NCBI GenBank assembly: GCA_017468395.1
Contig: JAFUIR010000015.1
Span: 1 to 64,000, forward strand
Source: Lachnospiraceae bacterium
GTDB lineage: Bacteria > Bacillota > Clostridia > Lachnospirales > Lachnospiraceae
DNA: 64,000 nt
Direction: 5' to 3'
The notes under the pieces: generated by a model
What the model saw: the letters and a program-made list of their open reading frames with translations, nothing else
Database searches by the model: none
What the model was told of the DNA's origin: nothing
Made by a program: the position numbers and the translations under genes
Shown here: one piece after another, positions 1 to 7,980 of the stretch
Numbering within the stretch: the first letter of the stretch is position 1
Layout: each line of letters begins with the position of its first letter

Positions 1-713
1 ACTTTACGGCTGTATCTGAAGTTAATCTTCATATTCCAAAAGGAAAGGTTTATGGTTTCCTCGGTCCGAATGGAGCAGGCAAATCCACAACAATGAAAAT
101 GTTTCTCGGACTGACGAAACCTACAAGCGGCTCTTTTGTGATTGACGGAAAGAAATATCCTCAAAACCGAGTTGAGATTTTGAAGGAAGTCGAGTCTTTC
201 ATTGAAGCCCCTGCCTTTTACGGAAATTTAAGCGGCAAGGAAAATCTGGAAATTGTATGTAAAATTTTGGAATTACCAAAATCAGCCGTTATGGATGCGT
301 TGGAACTTGTAGGGCTGACACAGTACAAAGACAGACTTGCAAAAAAATATTCGCTTGGTATGAAACAGCGATTAGGACTTGCAAGTGCATTGATTGGCAG
401 ACCGCCTATCCTTATTCTTGATGAGCCGACAAACGGACTTGACCCCGTGGGTATCCACGAAATCAGAACGCTTATTCGTTCTCTACCACAAAAATTTGAT
501 TGCACGGTTTTGGTGTCCTCACACCTACTTTCCGAAATTGAGCTTATGGCAGACAACATCGGTATTCTCAATCACGGACGGTTACTGTTTGAGGGAAGTC
601 TTGATGAACTGAAGCAGAGAGCCGTATCACAGGGCTATCCTACGGATAATCTGGAAGATACTTTCCTTGCACTTATTGATGCCGACAACAGGCAGAGAGG
701 TGGTGCAAGATGA
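1..713 (+). CDS. Lantibiotic-protection type ABC transporter, ATP-binding subunit (5' end outside window)
   Basis: This is the nucleotide-binding subunit of an ABC exporter of the BcrA/SpaF/MutF kind, which clears cell-wall-targeting peptides from the membrane. The frame is open from base 3 and Walker A (GPNGAGKST) is encoded at about 66-92, before the first internal ATG at 93. The true start therefore lies left of the window. The signature YSLGMKQRLGLASAL and Walker B ILILDEPTNGLDP follow. Its stop overlaps the next gene by four bases (ATGA), showing translational coupling to the permeases. The lantibiotic assignment rests on operon layout (ATPase plus two small permeases); other peptide or bacitracin-like substrates are possible. 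Confidence 0.9.
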   Translation, partial: FTAVSEVNLHIPKGKVYGFLGPNGAGKSTTMKMFLGLTKPTSGSFVIDGKKYPQNRVEILKEVESFIEAPAFYGNLSGKENLEIVCKILELPKSAVMDALELVGLTQYKDRLAKKYSLGMKQRLGLASALIGRPPILILDEPTNGLDPVGIHEIRTLIRSLPQKFDCTVLVSSHLLSEIELMADNIGILNHGRLLFEGSLDELKQRAVSQGYPTDNLEDTFLALIDADNRQRGGAR

Positions 714-1432
714 CCTTCGGTTTGGAATGTAAAAAGGTTAAACGGACAGGATTTATCCCTACATTCATTGTAGGCGGTCTGCTGGCTGCGGCAGTTCCTG
801 TTGTGAATATGGCAGTTCGTTCAGAAACTTATCTCGGACTTGAAAGCTCTCCAATTCAAATTCTGATGGACGCCAACTGGCAGATGATGGCTATGCTGAA
901 TGTTCTGCTCTTAGTGGCAGGTGCGTGTTTGATGTATCATACCGAGTATGCAGATAATGCTATTCAAAAAATGTGTATGCTACCCATCAAAGAACAGGAT
1001 TTTTTCTTTGGCAAAACTGTTTTGATTGCGGTTATGGGAATAGTCATCTTAATATTTGAAGCTATTGGTATTGCCTTCTGTTCTGCTCATTGGTTTGAGC
1101 TTTCGGGCAATTTTGCATTGGAACTGCTGAAAAGTTTCGGATATGCCTTTGCCTTGATGTTGCCATCAGCGTTGTTATCACTTTTAATTGCATCGCTTTG
1201 TCAGAATATGTGGGTATCACTTGGCATTGGAGTTATTTGTGTGTTTATGGCAACAATGCTTCCTACCGATAAATATGTTTTATCCATATTTCCATTTGCT
1301 TTGCCGTTTCAGACATTCGCAGGAGCAACAGGAAATGTTATCCGAAATATGCTGATTGCAAGCGTGGTTGAAACCGTCATTATCGCTATTGCGGAAGTAT
1401 TACTTTTGAAGGTAAGGAGGTCTATGGAATGA
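710..1432 (+). CDS. ABC-2 type permease (MutE/SpaE-like), 240 aa
   Basis: A membrane subunit of the same exporter. It begins with a short cytoplasmic stretch and a first hydrophobic segment (GFIPTFIVGGLLAAAVPVVN). About six membrane spans can be read, including LNVLLLVAGACLMYH and TVLIAVMGIVILIFEAIGIA. The length of about 240 residues is typical of lantibiotic-immunity permeases. Start and stop overlap both neighbours by four bases, so ATPase and permeases should be made in fixed ratio. The substrate cannot be deduced from sequence. Confidence 0.85.
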   Translation: MTFGLECKKVKRTGFIPTFIVGGLLAAAVPVVNMAVRSETYLGLESSPIQILMDANWQMMAMLNVLLLVAGACLMYHTEYADNAIQKMCMLPIKEQDFFFGKTVLIAVMGIVILIFEAIGIAFCSAHWFELSGNFALELLKSFGYAFALMLPSALLSLLIASLCQNMWVSLGIGVICVFMATMLPTDKYVLSIFPFALPFQTFAGATGNVIRNMLIASVVETVIIAIAEVLLLKVRRSME

Positions 1433-2199
1433 GTTTTCTTTCATTACTCGGCGTTGAGTTTAAGAAAATACGCCGTTCTAAAATAATGCTGATTTTATCA
1501 GTAGCGGTAATTGCCCTATGGCTACCATCAATTTTTAATGCGAATATGAACTTTCAAATGCAAGCAGAGGGCATATCTCCAGAATACAATTTCTTGATAC
1601 AGGGCTTTCTTGCTATGTCGTGGTTTATTTTCCCTGCAAGTATGGTTGTAAGTACCGTTCTGCTTAACCAGACCGAAAGAAGCAACAAGGGTATTTTAAA
1701 AATGCTTGCCCTGCCTATCAGTACAGCGAAATTATGTATGGCAAAGTTTGTGGTGCTGCTTTCTTTGGCAGCTGTCCAAGTCCTTATGTCAGTTGGTATG
1801 TATTACCTGAGTGCCGCTATTGTGACAGGAACGCAGAACTATAATTTTATCTTGTCGCCGTTATTTGTAATTAAGGAAGCAGGGCTGCTTTTGTTATCGT
1901 CCATACCGATGCTTGCTATTTTTTGGCTTTTAGCAGTATGTATTCAGACACCTATTTTCTCTGTCGGAATTGGGCTTGCATCTATTGTACCGTCCGTATT
2001 GATGATTAACACGAAAATCTGGTTTGCTTATCCAATGGCTTATCCGTTTTTTGTAATAACGGCAGAGTATGGGAAATTAGCCGCTAATCTGAACACGGCA
2101 CAGGTTGACTTAGTTCCGTGGTTGCCTGTTGCTGCTTGCATTACAGTAATTTGTTTGTTGATTGCCTGTTCCTGTTTTGGAAGGGCTGAAAGGAGATAA
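1429..2199 (+). CDS. ABC-2 type permease (MutG/SpaG-like), 256 aa
   Basis: Second membrane subunit of the exporter. It shares the layout of the preceding permease (MSFLSLLGVEFKKIRRSKIM, then about six spans) and the motif KGILKMLALPISTAKLCMAKF, which corresponds to NAIQKMCMLPIKEQDFFFGK in the first permease. The two probably arose by duplication and act as a heterodimer. A strong AAGGAGG lies just before the start, inside the end of the upstream gene. It is followed after five bases by a small membrane protein gene. Confidence 0.85.
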   Translation: MSFLSLLGVEFKKIRRSKIMLILSVAVIALWLPSIFNANMNFQMQAEGISPEYNFLIQGFLAMSWFIFPASMVVSTVLLNQTERSNKGILKMLALPISTAKLCMAKFVVLLSLAAVQVLMSVGMYYLSAAIVTGTQNYNFILSPLFVIKEAGLLLLSSIPMLAIFWLLAVCIQTPIFSVGIGLASIVPSVLMINTKIWFAYPMAYPFFVITAEYGKLAANLNTAQVDLVPWLPVAACITVICLLIACSCFGRAERR

Positions 2200-2204
2200 T
2201 CAGT

Positions 2205-2489
2205 ATGAAAAATAAAATCTTAACTACTATCAGTACCATTATGCTTTTTGTTCCGTGGACTATCCTGCCGTTTAGAATGTTCGATTGGGCGTTAGAGTCA
2301 CCCGTAGCTGAAATTATGATTTCCTGCTATGCGGCGTTTATGATATTCAGCGGAGTGTTTACAATCATATCTTATGTTAAGGCAAAAGTGCAGAATAATT
2401 TGATGAAGATTTGCTTGATTGTGAACGGTCTTTATGCAGTTGGCGGCGTTGCCGTATTCGCTATGATGGTTTTACCGAAAATTATGTAA
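2205..2489 (+). CDS. Small three-span membrane protein of the ABC cassette
   Basis: A 94-residue protein with three hydrophobic segments (about residues 5-23, 34-57 and 66-90) and almost no soluble part. It starts after AAAGGAGATAATCAGT, five bases past the second permease and 15 bases before the lipoprotein gene, so it is co-transcribed with the exporter. I do not recognise a named family. Position suggests an accessory or immunity-assisting membrane protein, but that is inference. Confidence 0.7.
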   Translation: MKNKILTTISTIMLFVPWTILPFRMFDWALESPVAEIMISCYAAFMIFSGVFTIISYVKAKVQNNLMKICLIVNGLYAVGGVAVFAMMVLPKIM

Positions 2490-2504
2490 GGAGGTATACA
2501 GAAT

Positions 2505-2993
2505 ATGAAAAGAGCAAAAGTAATTATATCTCTGATTTTGGTTTTGTGTTTGACCTTTTGTGTTGCAGGTTGCAGCTCCAATCACGACAACGGAAGTTTG
2601 AAAGATAATCTGATTGACGGATGGGATAATTGGATGCAGTCCTTTAGCAAACACGCATTAACAAAGGAAAAAGACCTGCAAGGCGAAAAGGATAAGGGTA
2701 ATGACGCATACACCGGTACTTATACAGCCACCTATGATGAATTCAATGGGAAAGAGTTTATCTTCGGCGGAACAGCTTTGGAACGAGCCAACGGTAATCA
2801 ACTTACTGTGACCTATACGCTAACCATAGATGAAGGTACGGCTGAGTTGTATTGGATTGCAGGTAGTGATGAATATACGATTGCAAATGACAATTCAGAA
2901 GATACAAAGGAGTACACCATTTCCTCTGGAGATAACTACATCGTCCTTAAAGGAGAGGACTTCAGCGGTACTCTGACATTGACAGTAGAATGA
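2505..2993 (+). CDS. Lipoprotein of the ABC cassette, 162 aa
   Basis: The N-terminus has a lysine/arginine start, a hydrophobic core and the lipobox VAGCSS, so the mature protein should be tethered to the outer face of the membrane by its cysteine at about residue 22. The mature part is polar, with a compact C-terminal region (residues about 60-162) rich in beta-strand-forming residues. Lantibiotic producers carry LanI lipoproteins beside LanFEG exporters, and the position fits such a role. The sequence is not one I can match to a known LanI, so function is inferred only from context. The stop overlaps the next small ORF as ATGA. Confidence 0.7.
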   Translation: MKRAKVIISLILVLCLTFCVAGCSSNHDNGSLKDNLIDGWDNWMQSFSKHALTKEKDLQGEKDKGNDAYTGTYTATYDEFNGKEFIFGGTALERANGNQLTVTYTLTIDEGTAELYWIAGSDEYTIANDNSEDTKEYTISSGDNYIVLKGEDFSGTLTLTVE

Positions 2994-3160
2994 CAGGCTT
3001 GTATTTCAGAAAATGTCTATCTTATACCATAACTGGTATCAGCGTGATCCTAATCGGAATACTGCTGATACCAGTTAGCATATTGCTTATGCTTATTTTT
3101 ATTCTATGGACTTCTACGGATGAAATTTTACGATTGTTGGAGGAGAAAAATGAATTATGA
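2990..3160 (+). CDS. 56-residue single-span membrane peptide
   Basis: A short ORF begins inside the lipoprotein stop (ATGA overlap) and ends at 3160, overlapping the start of the GntR gene. The product has one long hydrophobic segment (about residues 12-40) and a charged tail ending EILRLLEEKNEL. The tight overlaps at both ends match the translationally coupled style of the operon and argue that it is translated. There is no internal Shine-Dalgarno apart from coupling. Function unknown. Confidence 0.5.
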   Translation: MTGLYFRKCLSYTITGISVILIGILLIPVSILLMLIFILWTSTDEILRLLEEKNEL

Positions 3161-3536
3161 AAAATGGGCGTTTCACGACATAACCCCTATTTCCAGACAA
3201 CTTACCCAGAAGCTGACATATGCCATTTTGAGTAATGAGCTTTCCTCTGGGAATAGTATTCCGTCTGTTCGTGAAATGGCTGAAATACTACATATCAATC
3301 CAAATACCGTTTTGAAATCTTATAAAGCGGTAAAACAAGAACACCTCATTATTTGCTCTAAGGACGGAAAGTATTCTGTCACGCAAGATTATGATTGCAT
3401 ACAGCAGGTAAAGCAAAATACCATTAAAGAACTTTGTTGCTCATATTTGAGCAAGATGTTTGCATTGGGATTTAGCAAATCCGAAGCTATTGAACAGTTA
3501 CAAAATTACTGCGATAAGCTAAGTTGTCATCAATAA
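3150..3536 (+). CDS. GntR family regulator, YtrA-like
   Basis: A 128-residue repressor-type protein with an N-terminal winged helix of the GntR class: ISRQLTQKLTYAILSNEL, then SGNSIPSVREMAEILHINP and NTVLKSYKAVKQEHLI. The C-terminal part is short and helical with no large ligand domain, as in the YtrA subfamily that controls ABC exporters. The ATG at 3150 is chosen because TTGGAGGAG lies seven bases upstream; a longer frame from 3120 has no ribosome site. It probably controls the upstream exporter operon in response to envelope stress or antibiotic, by analogy with YtrA. Confidence 0.85.
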   Translation: MNYEKWAFHDITPISRQLTQKLTYAILSNELSSGNSIPSVREMAEILHINPNTVLKSYKAVKQEHLIICSKDGKYSVTQDYDCIQQVKQNTIKELCCSYLSKMFALGFSKSEAIEQLQNYCDKLSCHQ

Positions 3537-3560
3537 AGAACTATTAATAGAAAGGCATAA

Positions 3561-3594
3561 GCCCACCAAATAAAAAAACGGTGCTTTGGTGGGC
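3561..3594 (+). terminator. Hairpin downstream of the ABC-GntR operon
   Basis: GCCCACCAAA pairs with TTTGGTGGGC across a 14-base loop. The T-tract after it is poor, so it may act with the next hairpin at 3627. Confidence 0.5.
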
Positions 3595-3626
3595 GGATTT
3601 GTCACGCCCAGACTAAAATTTTACTG

Positions 3627-3662
3627 CCCTCTAAACCCGTTTTGAGTTTGGAGGGATTTTTT
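3627..3662 (+). terminator. Rho-independent terminator
   Basis: CCCTCTAAAC pairs with GTTTGGAGGG (one G-U pair) and is followed by ATTTTTT. This is the likely end of the ABC/GntR transcript. Confidence 0.75.
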
Positions 3663-3810
3663 ATGTGTTGGTCAAACACGACCACCACACTGCTTATTAA
3701 AAGCAGCGGCTACATACAAAGCACCACACATAAGCGAGGATAAGCTGTTAAAAAAAGCCTTGCCTATGCGTGGGAAAAGAATACTGTTCAAGTAGAGATT
3801 ACATCTCTCT

Positions 3811-3876
3811 ATGTTAGAACTGAATATACCTATAACTTTGTCCGTGTAGATGTGCGTGTCTATACGGATATTTTTT
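3811..3876 (+). promoter_or_regulatory. Putative leader peptide and attenuator before the mobility genes
   Basis: A 12-codon ORF (ATG at 3811, TAG at 3847-3849, MLELNIPITLSV) runs into the left arm of a hairpin, TCCGTGTAGA (3841-3850) with TCTATACGGA (3859-3868), followed by seven T residues. A ribosome on the leader would overlap the stem and could prevent termination, as in tet(M)- or erm-type leaders. No good Shine-Dalgarno precedes the ATG, so translation is uncertain. The hairpin and T-run are clear. The surrounding 3663-3970 stretch holds no other gene, only a further small inverted repeat around 3666-3690. Confidence 0.5.
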
Positions 3877-3970
3877 GTTTAAGAGACATTGCTGCTTATA
3901 CTGTCGGCTGTCGTAGCCCACCTCAATCTGAATTTTCAAAACAAGAAATTCAGATTGGAGGAAATTAAGA

Positions 3971-4396
3971 ATGGCATATAACCACGGTAAAGAAGAACGC
4001 AAATGGCGTATCTGGAAAGAAGCAGAGGAAAAGACAATGCGTGATTGCGGTGTTGATGAAGATACCATTGAGAAAATCCGCATCTATGACAGAGAGGTGT
4101 TCAATTCGGACAGGCGATTTTATCAGCGGTTGCAGGAAACGGATACATACCTTGATACTGTCGCAGAAAAAGAATGGCAGGTTGAGGTATGTTCTGTCAG
4201 TAAGCTGTTGGACGAGATTGAAAATATGGAACTGTATCGTGAATTGCTTACGGCGGACAGGCTTACCCTGCAAATCGTTCTGCTGAAAATGCAGGGGTGC
4301 TCTACAAAAGAAATCGCTAAAATCGTCCATCTAAAACCTAATGCAATATACGGAAGAATGAATACTCTCCGAAAAAAGCTGAAAAAGTTTTTTTAG
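3971..4396 (+). CDS. Sigma-70 region 4-like / HTH protein of integrative elements
   Basis: A 141-residue basic protein. The C-terminal third (about residues 80-135) is a sigma region-4-like helix-turn-helix: LTADRLTLQIVLLKMQGCSTKEIAKIVHLKPNAIYGRMNTLRKKL. Such proteins sit just upstream of recombinase genes in Tn1549/Tn4451-like elements. A GGAGG sequence precedes the ATG. It follows the attenuator hairpin at 3841-3868, so its expression is probably conditional. It may activate element excision or transfer genes; that role is inferred from position. Confidence 0.75.
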   Translation: MAYNHGKEERKWRIWKEAEEKTMRDCGVDEDTIEKIRIYDREVFNSDRRFYQRLQETDTYLDTVAEKEWQVEVCSVSKLLDEIENMELYRELLTADRLTLQIVLLKMQGCSTKEIAKIVHLKPNAIYGRMNTLRKKLKKFF

Positions 4397-4480
4397 TGTC
4401 TAATATTAGAGTGTTCTCACGGGCTATTGGGTGAGGGGATAAAACCTCTCACCCATTCAGCATTTCGGAGGGTTAAGATT

Positions 4481-4741
4481 ATGAACAGCTATATAGACGA
4501 AACAAGCAAAGAAGAATTTACTGAGGATATTACTATCCGAGAAGCATTAGACAGCATTGACGATATGCTCGCTTCTTGGACGAAAGAGGAACGCCTTGCT
4601 TTCTTTGCCACCTTTGCAAAACCGAAGGATATAGATTTTGTCAAAGAAATCGGCGGCATTTACTATGTGGTACGCTCCCACTTTAACCATGACAGTAACG
4701 AGGATATGGTAAGCAAGGTCAATAGGCTATTGAGCGAATAA
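4481..4741 (+). CDS. TnpW-like transposon-encoded protein
   Basis: An 86-residue acidic protein whose C-terminal part (IGGIYYVVRSHFNHDSNED, then a short helix) resembles the TnpW family carried by many clostridial integrative elements. The ATG at 4481 follows TTCGGAGGG at the right distance; the frame extends upstream to 4427 without a ribosome site. The N-terminal half contains an extra helical segment (EALDSIDDMLASWTKEERL). Function of the family is unknown, but it is nearly always found beside the recombinase, as here. Confidence 0.7.
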   Translation: MNSYIDETSKEEFTEDITIREALDSIDDMLASWTKEERLAFFATFAKPKDIDFVKEIGGIYYVVRSHFNHDSNEDMVSKVNRLLSE

Positions 4742-4763: not shown

Positions 4764-6523
<1,760 letters not shown>

Positions 6524-6563: not shown

Positions 6564-6609
6564 CGTCCCCTCCACTTCCTTATGTGAAGGGGACGAAGCA
6601 GTCTTTTTT
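6564..6609 (+). terminator. Terminator after the recombinase gene
   Basis: CGTCCCCTCCAC pairs with GTGAAGGGGACG (one mismatch), followed by AAGCAG and TCTTTTTTT. Confidence 0.8.
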
Positions 6610-6642
6610 TATTTTACCCTCTTTTTGCGTTGCTCAATGTAC

Positions 6643-6662
6643 TGCGGAAGATGGGACTTGAA
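6643..6662 (+). repeat. Copy of the tRNA-Leu 3' end (attachment-site duplicate)
   Basis: The 20 bases TGCGGAAGATGGGACTTGAA are identical to 7872-7891, the 3' end of the minus-strand tRNA-Leu gene. A third, partial 12-base copy, GCGGAAGATGGG, is at 7720-7731. This pattern marks integration at a tRNA 3' end, with 6663-7871 as one unit and the recombinase element ending just to the left. Confidence 0.8.
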
Positions 6663-6763
6663 TGAATTTGTACCTAAAAAAACACGATAGAAAGGGGCTT
6701 TTCAGCACATCATCTACGAGTGTAACAAAAGTGTAACAAACTTCCGCATGACCTTTACACACT

Positions 6764-7501
6764 TTACATATTCATTTCCATATCTTCAAGAATTCCTACA
6801 AGATTACGAATAGATTTTCCTTCTTCAATTCTCTTTTTTAGTTCTTCCTTAATTTGTAGATATGAAATTTTTGATGGAATAATATCATCTACAATTCCAG
6901 GATACAATTCTGATAAATTGTCTATCATAAGTTTTACAATATTCTTATTTAGAATTTCACCATAATGCTTGTCGCAAACATTCGCAACATCATCAATTAT
7001 TCTTTTATAAGATTCTTCTTCATTCTCATCAATGAACGCAGAAAACAAGACATTATCAAAGGCTGAAATTCTATACTCATTTTCTTTTAGTTCTGTATTA
7101 TCTCTAATTCGTAAAAGAGGCATTAACTTTCCAGTTTTTTTAACCAAAATCATACGTTGTTTATTCACATAATCTGTTTCAAGCCCCGAAACTATGTAAG
7201 AGATTAAATCAACTCCAAATTCTAGAACTAATGGCTCGGCTATCATATTATTTTTGATTTCCCTATCAGCAGTAATATTACCATTCTCTACCACGCTCTC
7301 TTCTACTCCTATCAAAGCCCCTGCCGACACTCCCAAAACTTTACATATTCCAGCCAACAAAGAAACGTCTGGCATTCCATTACCACGTTCCCATTTACTT
7401 ACTGCCTGTGCAGTTACACCTAATCTTGACGCAAATTCTTCTTGTGTCATTTTACGCATTTGCCTATATTGGCAAATAGTTTCTCCAATATTATTTTGCA
7501 T
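6764..7501 (-). CDS. XRE-type HTH protein with FlhA-like C-terminal domain
   Basis: A 245-residue protein. Residues 5-60 form an XRE helix-turn-helix (MTQEEFASRLGVTAQAVSKWERG). Residues about 90-242 resemble the cytoplasmic domain of FlhA/FHIPEP proteins, the export gate of flagellar type III secretion. In particular LRIRDNTELKENEYRI (130-145) matches the conserved RIRDN..L..NEY block. The C-terminal stretch HYGEILNKNIVKLMIDNL ... SIRNLVGILEDM (179-241) matches the H..ELL...E...L ... SIRNLVTI end of FlhA. The region between these blocks is shorter than in FlhA and there are no membrane spans. It sits alone in the 1.2-kb unit at the tRNA-Leu site behind its own promoter. It is probably a DNA-binding regulator with a protein-docking domain; partners unknown. 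Confidence 0.8.
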   Translation of the reverse strand: MQNNIGETICQYRQMRKMTQEEFASRLGVTAQAVSKWERGNGMPDVSLLAGICKVLGVSAGALIGVEESVVENGNITADREIKNNMIAEPLVLEFGVDLISYIVSGLETDYVNKQRMILVKKTGKLMPLLRIRDNTELKENEYRISAFDNVLFSAFIDENEEESYKRIIDDVANVCDKHYGEILNKNIVKLMIDNLSELYPGIVDDIIPSKISYLQIKEELKKRIEEGKSIRNLVGILEDMEMNM

Positions 7502-7525: not shown

Positions 7526-7560
7526 AATTAGATTATATTTCTAATTCTCATCTCCGTAAA
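7526..7560 (-). promoter_or_regulatory. Promoter and inverted-repeat operator of the HTH-FlhA-like gene
   Basis: On the minus strand TTTACG (7560-7555), 17 bases, then TATAAT (7537-7532). A perfect 7+7 inverted repeat, AATTAGA (7526-7532) and TCTAATT (7540-7546), covers the -10 box. This suggests autorepression by the HTH protein. Confidence 0.6.
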
Positions 7561-7719
7561 ACAACGAGATGTTGATAGAAACTAAACCGACTTATGCTTA
7601 AAACACACTTTGGAAAATATTATATCATTATTCATAACATATATAAAATTTTTATTCGCCAAAGTTTTCAAGCCAAAAGCGGTGTAACAAAGTGTACAAA
7701 AAAATTTCATTTTAGCCAA

Positions 7720-7867: not shown

Positions 7868-7871
7868 ACAA

Positions 7872-7955
7872 TGCGGAAGATGGGACTTGAACCCACACGT
7901 CTATACCGACACAAGATCCTTAGTCTTGCCTGTCTGCCAATTCCAGCACTTCCGC
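7872..7955 (-). tRNA. tRNA-Leu (anticodon AAG)
   Basis: The reverse complement folds as a class II tRNA of 84 nt. The acceptor stem GCGGAAG pairs with CTTCCGC, followed by discriminator A; CCA is not encoded. The anticodon stem CAAGA/TCTTG encloses the loop CTAAGGA, giving anticodon AAG, which reads CUU/CUC leucine codons. The T-arm carries GGTTCAAGTCC. Its last 20 bases are the repeat found again at 6643-6662, so it is the attachment site of an integrative element. Confidence 0.92.
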
Positions 7956-7980
7956 ATATGTGCTAAATCACACAAATGGT

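Follow-up and report, generated by a model that had tools for sequence, protein, structure and literature searches.

Why would a DNA-binding protein carry a piece of FlhA, which is known as a membrane protein of the export gate? The question is posed by a gene in a 64,000-nucleotide stretch of DNA from a Lachnospiraceae bacterium, analysed here as a whole (the window), and it breaks down into several narrower ones: is the resemblance to FlhA due to common descent, which parts of FlhA are kept, what kind of unit holds the gene, what does the protein act on, and does it still have anything to do with flagella? The gene and its parts are the following.

6764..7501, minus strand: XRE-FlhA gene, 245 aa (open reading frame; HTH_3 and FHIPEP above the Pfam cut-offs)
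7322..7471, minus strand: XRE helix-turn-helix (HTH), residues 11-60 (HTH_3, E 6.6e-15, Pfam)
7067..7264, minus strand: FlhA D1-like part, residues 80-145, with the GYXLI glycine (G96) and RIRDN (PDB profile alignment, hhalign)
6779..7006, minus strand: end of D1 and D3-like part, residues 166-241 (FHIPEP match, profile alignment)

The XRE head and the FlhA-derived part

The first-pass annotation placed an XRE HTH at residues 5-60, in agreement with the HTH_3 match listed above; SinR is one of the PDB matches found for this head with the family profile A2 (17 relatives). The remainder of the protein had been read as FlhA-like from the motifs LRIRDNTELKENEYRI and SIRNLVGILEDM in FlhA order, and the collinear stretches recovered with FHIPEP and phmmer, far above chance, bear this out. 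The FHIPEP match on which that reading hinged (PF00771, Pfam) scores 60.8 bits against a cut-off of 29.1 (E 1.3e-16) and consists of two collinear stretches, on profile positions 318-393 and 455 to about 530-535, the best covering residues 166-241; TIGR01398 (FlhA) gives E 3.2e-17 and 62.1 bits, below its equivalog cut-off of 772.1. With phmmer, the protein matches FlhA 3mix over the collinear query stretches 78-150 and 175-241 (E 1.2e-12), whereas profile A2, in a PDB profile search, matches 3mix with E 2.7e-28 and the FlhA chains 6ai0-6ai3 with E of about 6e-20. Aligned with hhalign, the 17 C-terminal parts (A3) and 10 FlhA sequences yield 99.75% and E 1.9e-27 over 189 columns, and G96, the glycine of the GYXLI motif, is invariant in all 17 aligned family rows. 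By these comparisons, the resemblance to the cytoplasmic domain of FlhA is one of homology.

The protein is classed here with the XRE regulators, its FlhA-derived C-terminal part being new, and not as FlhA. The N-terminal membrane domain is absent, the 245-aa frame carrying the HTH there instead, and so is D4, the FHIPEP match stopping at about position 530 of 657, at residue 241 of 245 (the borders of D1, D2, D3 and D4 on this protein are presumed). Thus, the earlier statement that the FlhA type is always a membrane protein does not hold for this family, which has no membrane part at all, and what does hold is the description of a soluble, predicted DNA-binding protein with a FlhA-derived domain, the sole gene of a small unit at tRNA-Leu. 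AlphaFold models reach a mean pLDDT of 43 with an alignment of 5 sequences and of 37 for the C-terminal part alone. At the level of titles and the first lines of abstracts, the open-access literature yielded no description of an XRE-FlhA fusion.

So which part of FlhA is missing between the two matched stretches? FlhA has about 60 extra residues there (profile 393-455) that are absent from the window protein. On 6ai0-6ai3, which we take to be Salmonella FlhA-C, profile A2 aligns to chain positions 27-99 and 166-256 but not to 100-165 (about 66 residues). Chain position 167 is Met in one of these chains and Thr in the others; the chain with Met is presumably the T490M mutant, which sets the residue numbering, so that the skipped part corresponds to about residues 423-488 and includes Asp456 and Phe459. 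PMC8166844 describes a dimple of Asp456, Phe459 and Thr490, located where D1 meets D2, to which FlgN, FliS and FliT bind. D2 is absent and D1 and D3 are kept in 16 of the 17 aligned fusions, the window protein included, and the residue aligned to Thr490 is variable within the family. With two of the three dimple residues absent, the window protein cannot use the known chaperone-docking dimple; as far as the alignments go, it has kept a D1-D3 core but not the known docking site, which takes the ground from the earlier proposal that the protein 'borrowed the docking domain'. The exception is L028 (genome G173), a divergent relative that keeps D2: here FHIPEP matches in one stretch (residues 75-293 on 314-541), and EPVW stands at the position of the EPSF of the host FlhA.

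These findings bear directly on the idea, put forward in the first-pass annotation, of a sensor of flagellar chaperones or substrates working through the FlhA docking site. Chaperone docking by FlhA-C itself and the G173 relative, which both keeps D2 and adjoins a FliD_C gene, would fit such a sensor, but a docking stretch missing from all other aligned fusions, along with a variable Thr490 position, makes it decidedly unlikely. As for other uses of the retained core, the linker of FlhA touches D1 and D3 of the adjacent subunit and steadies the ring (PMC8166844), which suggests a role of the core as a contact module. PMC9431611 has the linker binding D1 and D2 of the neighbour subunit, not D1 and D3, and with D2 gone such a contact would be lost.

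Distribution of the family and the unit at tRNA-Leu

XRE-FlhA copies, intact or broken, occur in at least 17 of the 397 Lachnospiraceae genomes. Fourteen are full-length (G000, the host genome from which the window comes, G184, G206, G264, G164, G265, G272, G166, G333, G370, G288, G096, G173 and G016), and the damaged ones are shortened in G045, broken in G174 and in fragments in G349. In the last genome, a further XRE-FlhA-like fragment with a 110-aa frame (L255, G349:C4:53763-54047) is separate from the piece on contig C68, the pieces thus lying at two places. Of the six loci found in the search of genome contigs, four are close relatives that have both the head and the FlhA part, L004 lacks the HTH, and the remaining one matches in the HTH only. 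No further carrier was among the matches listed for a second query, L028, on the Lachnospiraceae genomes; checking those with extra FHIPEP or longer XRE matches added none, and the two genomes of the host's genus in this sample gave no match at fusion strength. Among 371 Clostridia genomes, 142 of which had A3 matches, the host G000 alone matched as a fusion; the other frames are as long as FlhA or, where checked, are FlhA truncated by a contig end, apart from one chance match.

A number of candidate carriers were rejected. The short FlhA-like frames of G750, G549, G667 and G567 are FlhA truncated by contig ends (the first three judged from frames, G567 from the profile match only), and G652 is a chance match. 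In G097, G274, G285, G311 and G342, each with a second FHIPEP match, the matches listed are FlhA-like frames and include no fusion, the frames of G285 and G311 being without HTH by the whole-family profile; G333:C69, G164:C30 and G174:C83 have the XRE head only, and nothing in G223 matches the FlhA part. Among the best 20 each of the phage and plasmid records (90 and 312 partial matches, respectively), none covers 80% of the window protein. MT835847 and MT835480 (L040 and L041, matching residues 89-241 and 93-241) contain flagellar gene clusters with ordinary FlhA frames of 681 and 688 aa and are evidently bacterial DNA filed in phage records; the best-covered plasmid and satellite-phage matches, OY725837 and MK448428, are XRE heads without the FlhA part. 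In viral contigs, the family alignment A2 found nine loci, eight matching the HTH region and one (L177) matching 4-158 at 26%, and the FlhA alignment found none.

In a tree of 17 fusions and 18 FlhA sequences, each group lies on its own side of one branch (support 100/99). The fusion branches are much longer than those of FlhA, so that the old contact surface may be gone; L024 and L028 are nearest to FlhA, their joining being flagged as a possible long-branch effect. Whole-gene dN/dS is 0.094 (window/L005), 0.144 (L001/L002) and 0.101 (L001/L003), and 0-0.06 for the HTH alone, in three usable pairs, two other pairs being saturated or nearly so. Shortened or broken copies, as in G045, G174, G349 and L004, are what one would expect of a decaying, functionless gene fusion carried as dead cargo, but given dN/dS of 0.09-0.14 in the computable pairs, and an operator that is conserved (see below), we find this scarcely credible.

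Some loci call for separate mention. At L004 (8102-8721, Lachnospiraceae SUG40), 620 bp are 99% identical to window 6646-7265; this insert comprises the FlhA-like part and the left end of the unit, without HTH or promoter, and splits what looks by eye like a single lipoprotein gene. At L045 and L048 (G164 and G166), mutS-like genes (by eye) are found close to the XRE-FlhA genes, a hint that in some lineages the gene has long had a chromosomal location.

In the window, the gene lies within a unit delimited as follows.

6643..6662, plus strand: att core, left copy (exact 20-bp repeat of the tRNA-Leu 3' end)
6643..6755, plus strand: left end of the unit, common to other elements (copies at G000:C17, G372:C32 and G122:C92)
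7655..7687, plus strand: right end of the unit, with the putative integrase 3'-end relic FAKVFKPKAV-stop (likeness to the L120 integrase end; read off the sequence)
7871..7956, minus strand: tRNA-Leu (aag), the integration target, with the right att core (7872-7891) inside (ARAGORN, repeat)

The 19-bp att core has 2 matches, against a mean of 0.01 in shuffles. Copies of the left end were found at G000:C17 (86%), G372:C32 (97%), G122:C92 (81%) and G349:C5 (78%), with weaker ones elsewhere, and many of the 77 genomes in this search matched the tRNA 3' end alone. L120 (G122) is a fuller element (495-4653) in tRNA-Leu(aag), with Rep (PF23343), a Mob_Pre relaxase (PF01076) and a tyrosine integrase (PF00589) that ends FAKVFGSKAM-stop, the DNA matching the right end in the window at 86% over 51 bases; by this likeness, FAKVFKPKAV-stop is read as the last codons of a lost integrase gene. 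The unit thus derives from an element with integration and transfer genes, its ends being common to L120 and only the last integrase codons remaining. Its GC content is 34.6% versus 41.4% for the window, the XRE-FlhA gene is its sole sizeable intact gene, and it has no transfer gene. Judging by its ends and contents, this 1.2-kb unit is a decayed, non-autonomous mobile element, CIME-like, in tRNA-Leu.

The host genome has a second unit (L065, G000:C17, 1-1440), whose left end is the same and whose right end is similar. It contains a truncated Rep frame and a gene resembling DHFR, for which the nearest NCBIfam model is DfrF (193.7 bits, short of the cut-off of 320); contig C17 breaks within a stretch resembling window 6590-6620. 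At L118 (6259-7187, G372), what comes after the 97% identical left end is another cargo, a 148-aa frame with no match in Pfam or PADLOC, so that the genes carried next to this end vary. A large serine recombinase (window 4850-6523; Resolvase, Recombinase, Zn_ribbon_recom and DUF4368) probably belongs to a separate element ending directly beside the unit.

Could the protein then regulate the mobile element itself, that is, its excision or immunity, rather than host functions? XRE repressors are common in such elements, and here the gene is all of any size that the unit has kept intact. However, the unit is reduced to the last integrase codons and devoid of transfer genes, the listed frames of the fuller L120 element include no XRE-FlhA gene, and at the other XRE-FlhA loci read no such unit surrounds the gene and, except at L004, no shared left end lies beside it; we consider this role very unlikely.

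Predicted operator and promoter, and the question of flagella

The DNA upstream of the gene offers a more direct way to ask what the protein acts on.

7562..7574, minus strand: predicted operator CAAC-ATCTC-GTTG, centred near -43 (leave-one-out conservation, 16 of 18 family genes)
7532..7560, minus strand: predicted promoter, -35 TTTACG (7560-7555), 17 nt, -10 TATAAT (7537-7532) (promoter scan, conserved spacing)

Aligned upstream DNA of the family shows (A/C)AAC-N5-GTTG-(T/C)TTTAC, 18 nt and a TATAAT-like word, the promoter being sigma-A-like; the word at this fixed spacing fits TANNNT in 15 of the 16 genes with the site. The window promoter scores 10 of 12 in the scan, the region having 5 such matches versus 4.9 in shuffles. 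The operator seeds were set by eye and by pattern in 16 of the 18 genes, in a set without L002 (a near-copy of L001) and L004, L054 and L056 (intact start absent), the four closest genes being kept apart from one another in scoring. Leave-one-out scoring recovered the same palindrome site in 16 of the 18 family genes (p 0.0009-0.0121 against 1072 random stretches); the operator is absent from the two others, L051 (G370, p 0.37) and L055 (G016, p 0.12). None of the 13 XRE-only control genes, which lack the FlhA part, fell under 0.05 (lowest p 0.068).

In the host genome, the strict pattern with at most three mismatches has 68 sites versus 104 for the reversed pattern, and with at most one mismatch a single site, the gene's own promoter; there are four two-mismatch sites, C21:43043 among them, and the looser pattern adds one one-mismatch site, C10:35135. 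Across 13 of the 17 carrier genomes, the looser pattern with at most one mismatch has 27 sites, of which 10 are own promoters; the other 17 are no excess, the reversed pattern giving 24. All four exact sites in these genomes (G000, G166, G333 and G272) are own promoters. A conserved palindrome before the promoter, with exact sites only at own promoters, indicates that the XRE-FlhA protein is most likely an autoregulator, and the position of the operator near -43 is compatible with activation as much as with repression. The scans of the host and the 13 carrier genomes gave no sign of flagellar targets. Hence the suggestion that a mobile element reads the flagellar state of the host survives in part: the unit is indeed mobile-derived, but no such unit was seen around the gene at the other loci and the operator scan brings no sign of flagellar targets.

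Co-occurrence with flagellar genes, which the first-pass annotation had raised, gives a different picture. FHIPEP matched in 211 of the 397 Lachnospiraceae genomes, 209 of which have FlhA at 7.4e-106 or better, the count excluding G272 and G174 with their sole, weak and fusion-type FHIPEP matches. By this marker, carriers are mostly flagellated: FlhA is present in 15 of the 17 carriers versus 194 of the 380 other genomes (Fisher p 0.002), and in 13 of the 14 full-length carriers (p 0.0015), both figures being uncorrected for kinship. FliF, searched in G272, G174 and G000 only, was found in G272 (93% complete) and is absent from G174 (76% complete), so that the lack of FlhA in G272 is probably an assembly gap; with three genomes searched, this rescue is one-sided.

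At 19 loci, read by eye over up to four frames on each side, no gene is common across loci, and when 311 frames from 21 loci were compared with 34 frames of three flagellar clusters, themselves without many flagellar genes, only one general sigma-factor-like frame and one response-regulator frame matched beyond the fusions. Flagella-related neighbours were found at 3 of the 19 loci: by Pfam, run on ten selected proteins, a FliD_C protein (37.8 bits, cut-off 25.4) lies directly upstream of the G173 copy; also by Pfam, a chemoreceptor lies four frames away from the G164 copy; and a FliD_C-like frame is about 4 kb from the G264 copy. Separately, a small FliD_C-like family recurs (L065 1579-2307, L057 6562-7335, L109, L112, L113 and L044), with members at two XRE-FlhA loci and at several loci that surround tRNA-Leu cores. 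The idea of a defence island was dropped: two neighbours in G272 are of methyltransferase type, the other six neighbour proteins tested have no PADLOC match, and the window protein matched in PADLOC only via the HTH region and the stretch just after it.

Hence, the link of the family to flagella stays alive, on account of the co-occurrence and of the G173 relative, with its retained D2 and adjoining FliD_C gene. The opposite reading is a self-contained autoregulator with no present flagellar link, in which the FlhA piece was captured once and is now a dimerization or small-ligand domain. Scans with no target beyond the own promoter, loci without a common neighbour and long fusion branches are all compatible with it, but it leaves aside that FlhA occurs in nearly all carriers and in only about half of the remaining genomes, that G272, one of the two FlhA-less carriers, has FliF, and that the G173 copy has a FliD_C neighbour; we deem it possible but doubtful.

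A proposed role and comparison with known systems

The hypothesis that we prefer, tentatively and with somewhat less than even confidence, is that the window protein is a one-component XRE-type autoregulator in which the trimmed FlhA D1-D3 part is a protein-contact module, carried as cargo of the decayed CIME-like unit. The N-terminal HTH would most likely bind the palindrome near -43 of its own promoter, both the binding and its sign being suggested by comparison. The C-terminal part, the cytoplasmic domain of FlhA trimmed to D1 and D3, would now serve for contact, either by self-assembly of the regulator or by co-assembly with the host FlhA ring, the putative partner. Co-assembly would couple DNA binding to the amount of export gate present. 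Both the partner and the mechanism proposed here for the retained FlhA piece are putative.

A bolder scenario, which we think rather improbable, has the D1-D3 core joining the host FlhA ring, with free molecules acting on their own promoter and occupied ones not, such that a soluble FlhA mimic would be made to match the export gates, tuning or blocking flagellar export. If this is true, a FlhA mimic on a mobile unit could switch motility off after arrival. More generally, a soluble DNA-binding family that has D1-D3 but neither D4 nor the part for chaperone docking would mean that the ring fold of the gate is reusable as a regulatory module, and with it one could ask whether cells, or mobile elements, directly gauge the assembly of export gates.

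How does the autoregulator with a contact module compare with known systems? With FlhA (FHIPEP; PF00771, TIGR01398), it shares, in collinear order, D1 (including the GYXLI glycine and RIRDN) and D3 (including SIR(N/D)L), and it differs from FlhA in lacking the membrane domain, the D2 stretch with Asp456 and Phe459, and D4, and in the fused DNA-binding head. SinR and SlrR of Bacillus are XRE-family regulators acting on motility. So, reportedly, are BswR (PMC3985676) and the Xre regulator of Cereibacter (PMC11999139). All four have an XRE head like that of the window protein, whereas the C-terminal part of the latter is FlhA-derived and its sole suggested target is its own promoter. A CIME, according to PMC5704250, is a decayed ICE or IME that can be mobilized in cis; like it, the window unit keeps two att sites, has lost integration and transfer genes and targets a tRNA 3' end, but it is very small (1.2 kb) and has a single regulator gene as cargo.
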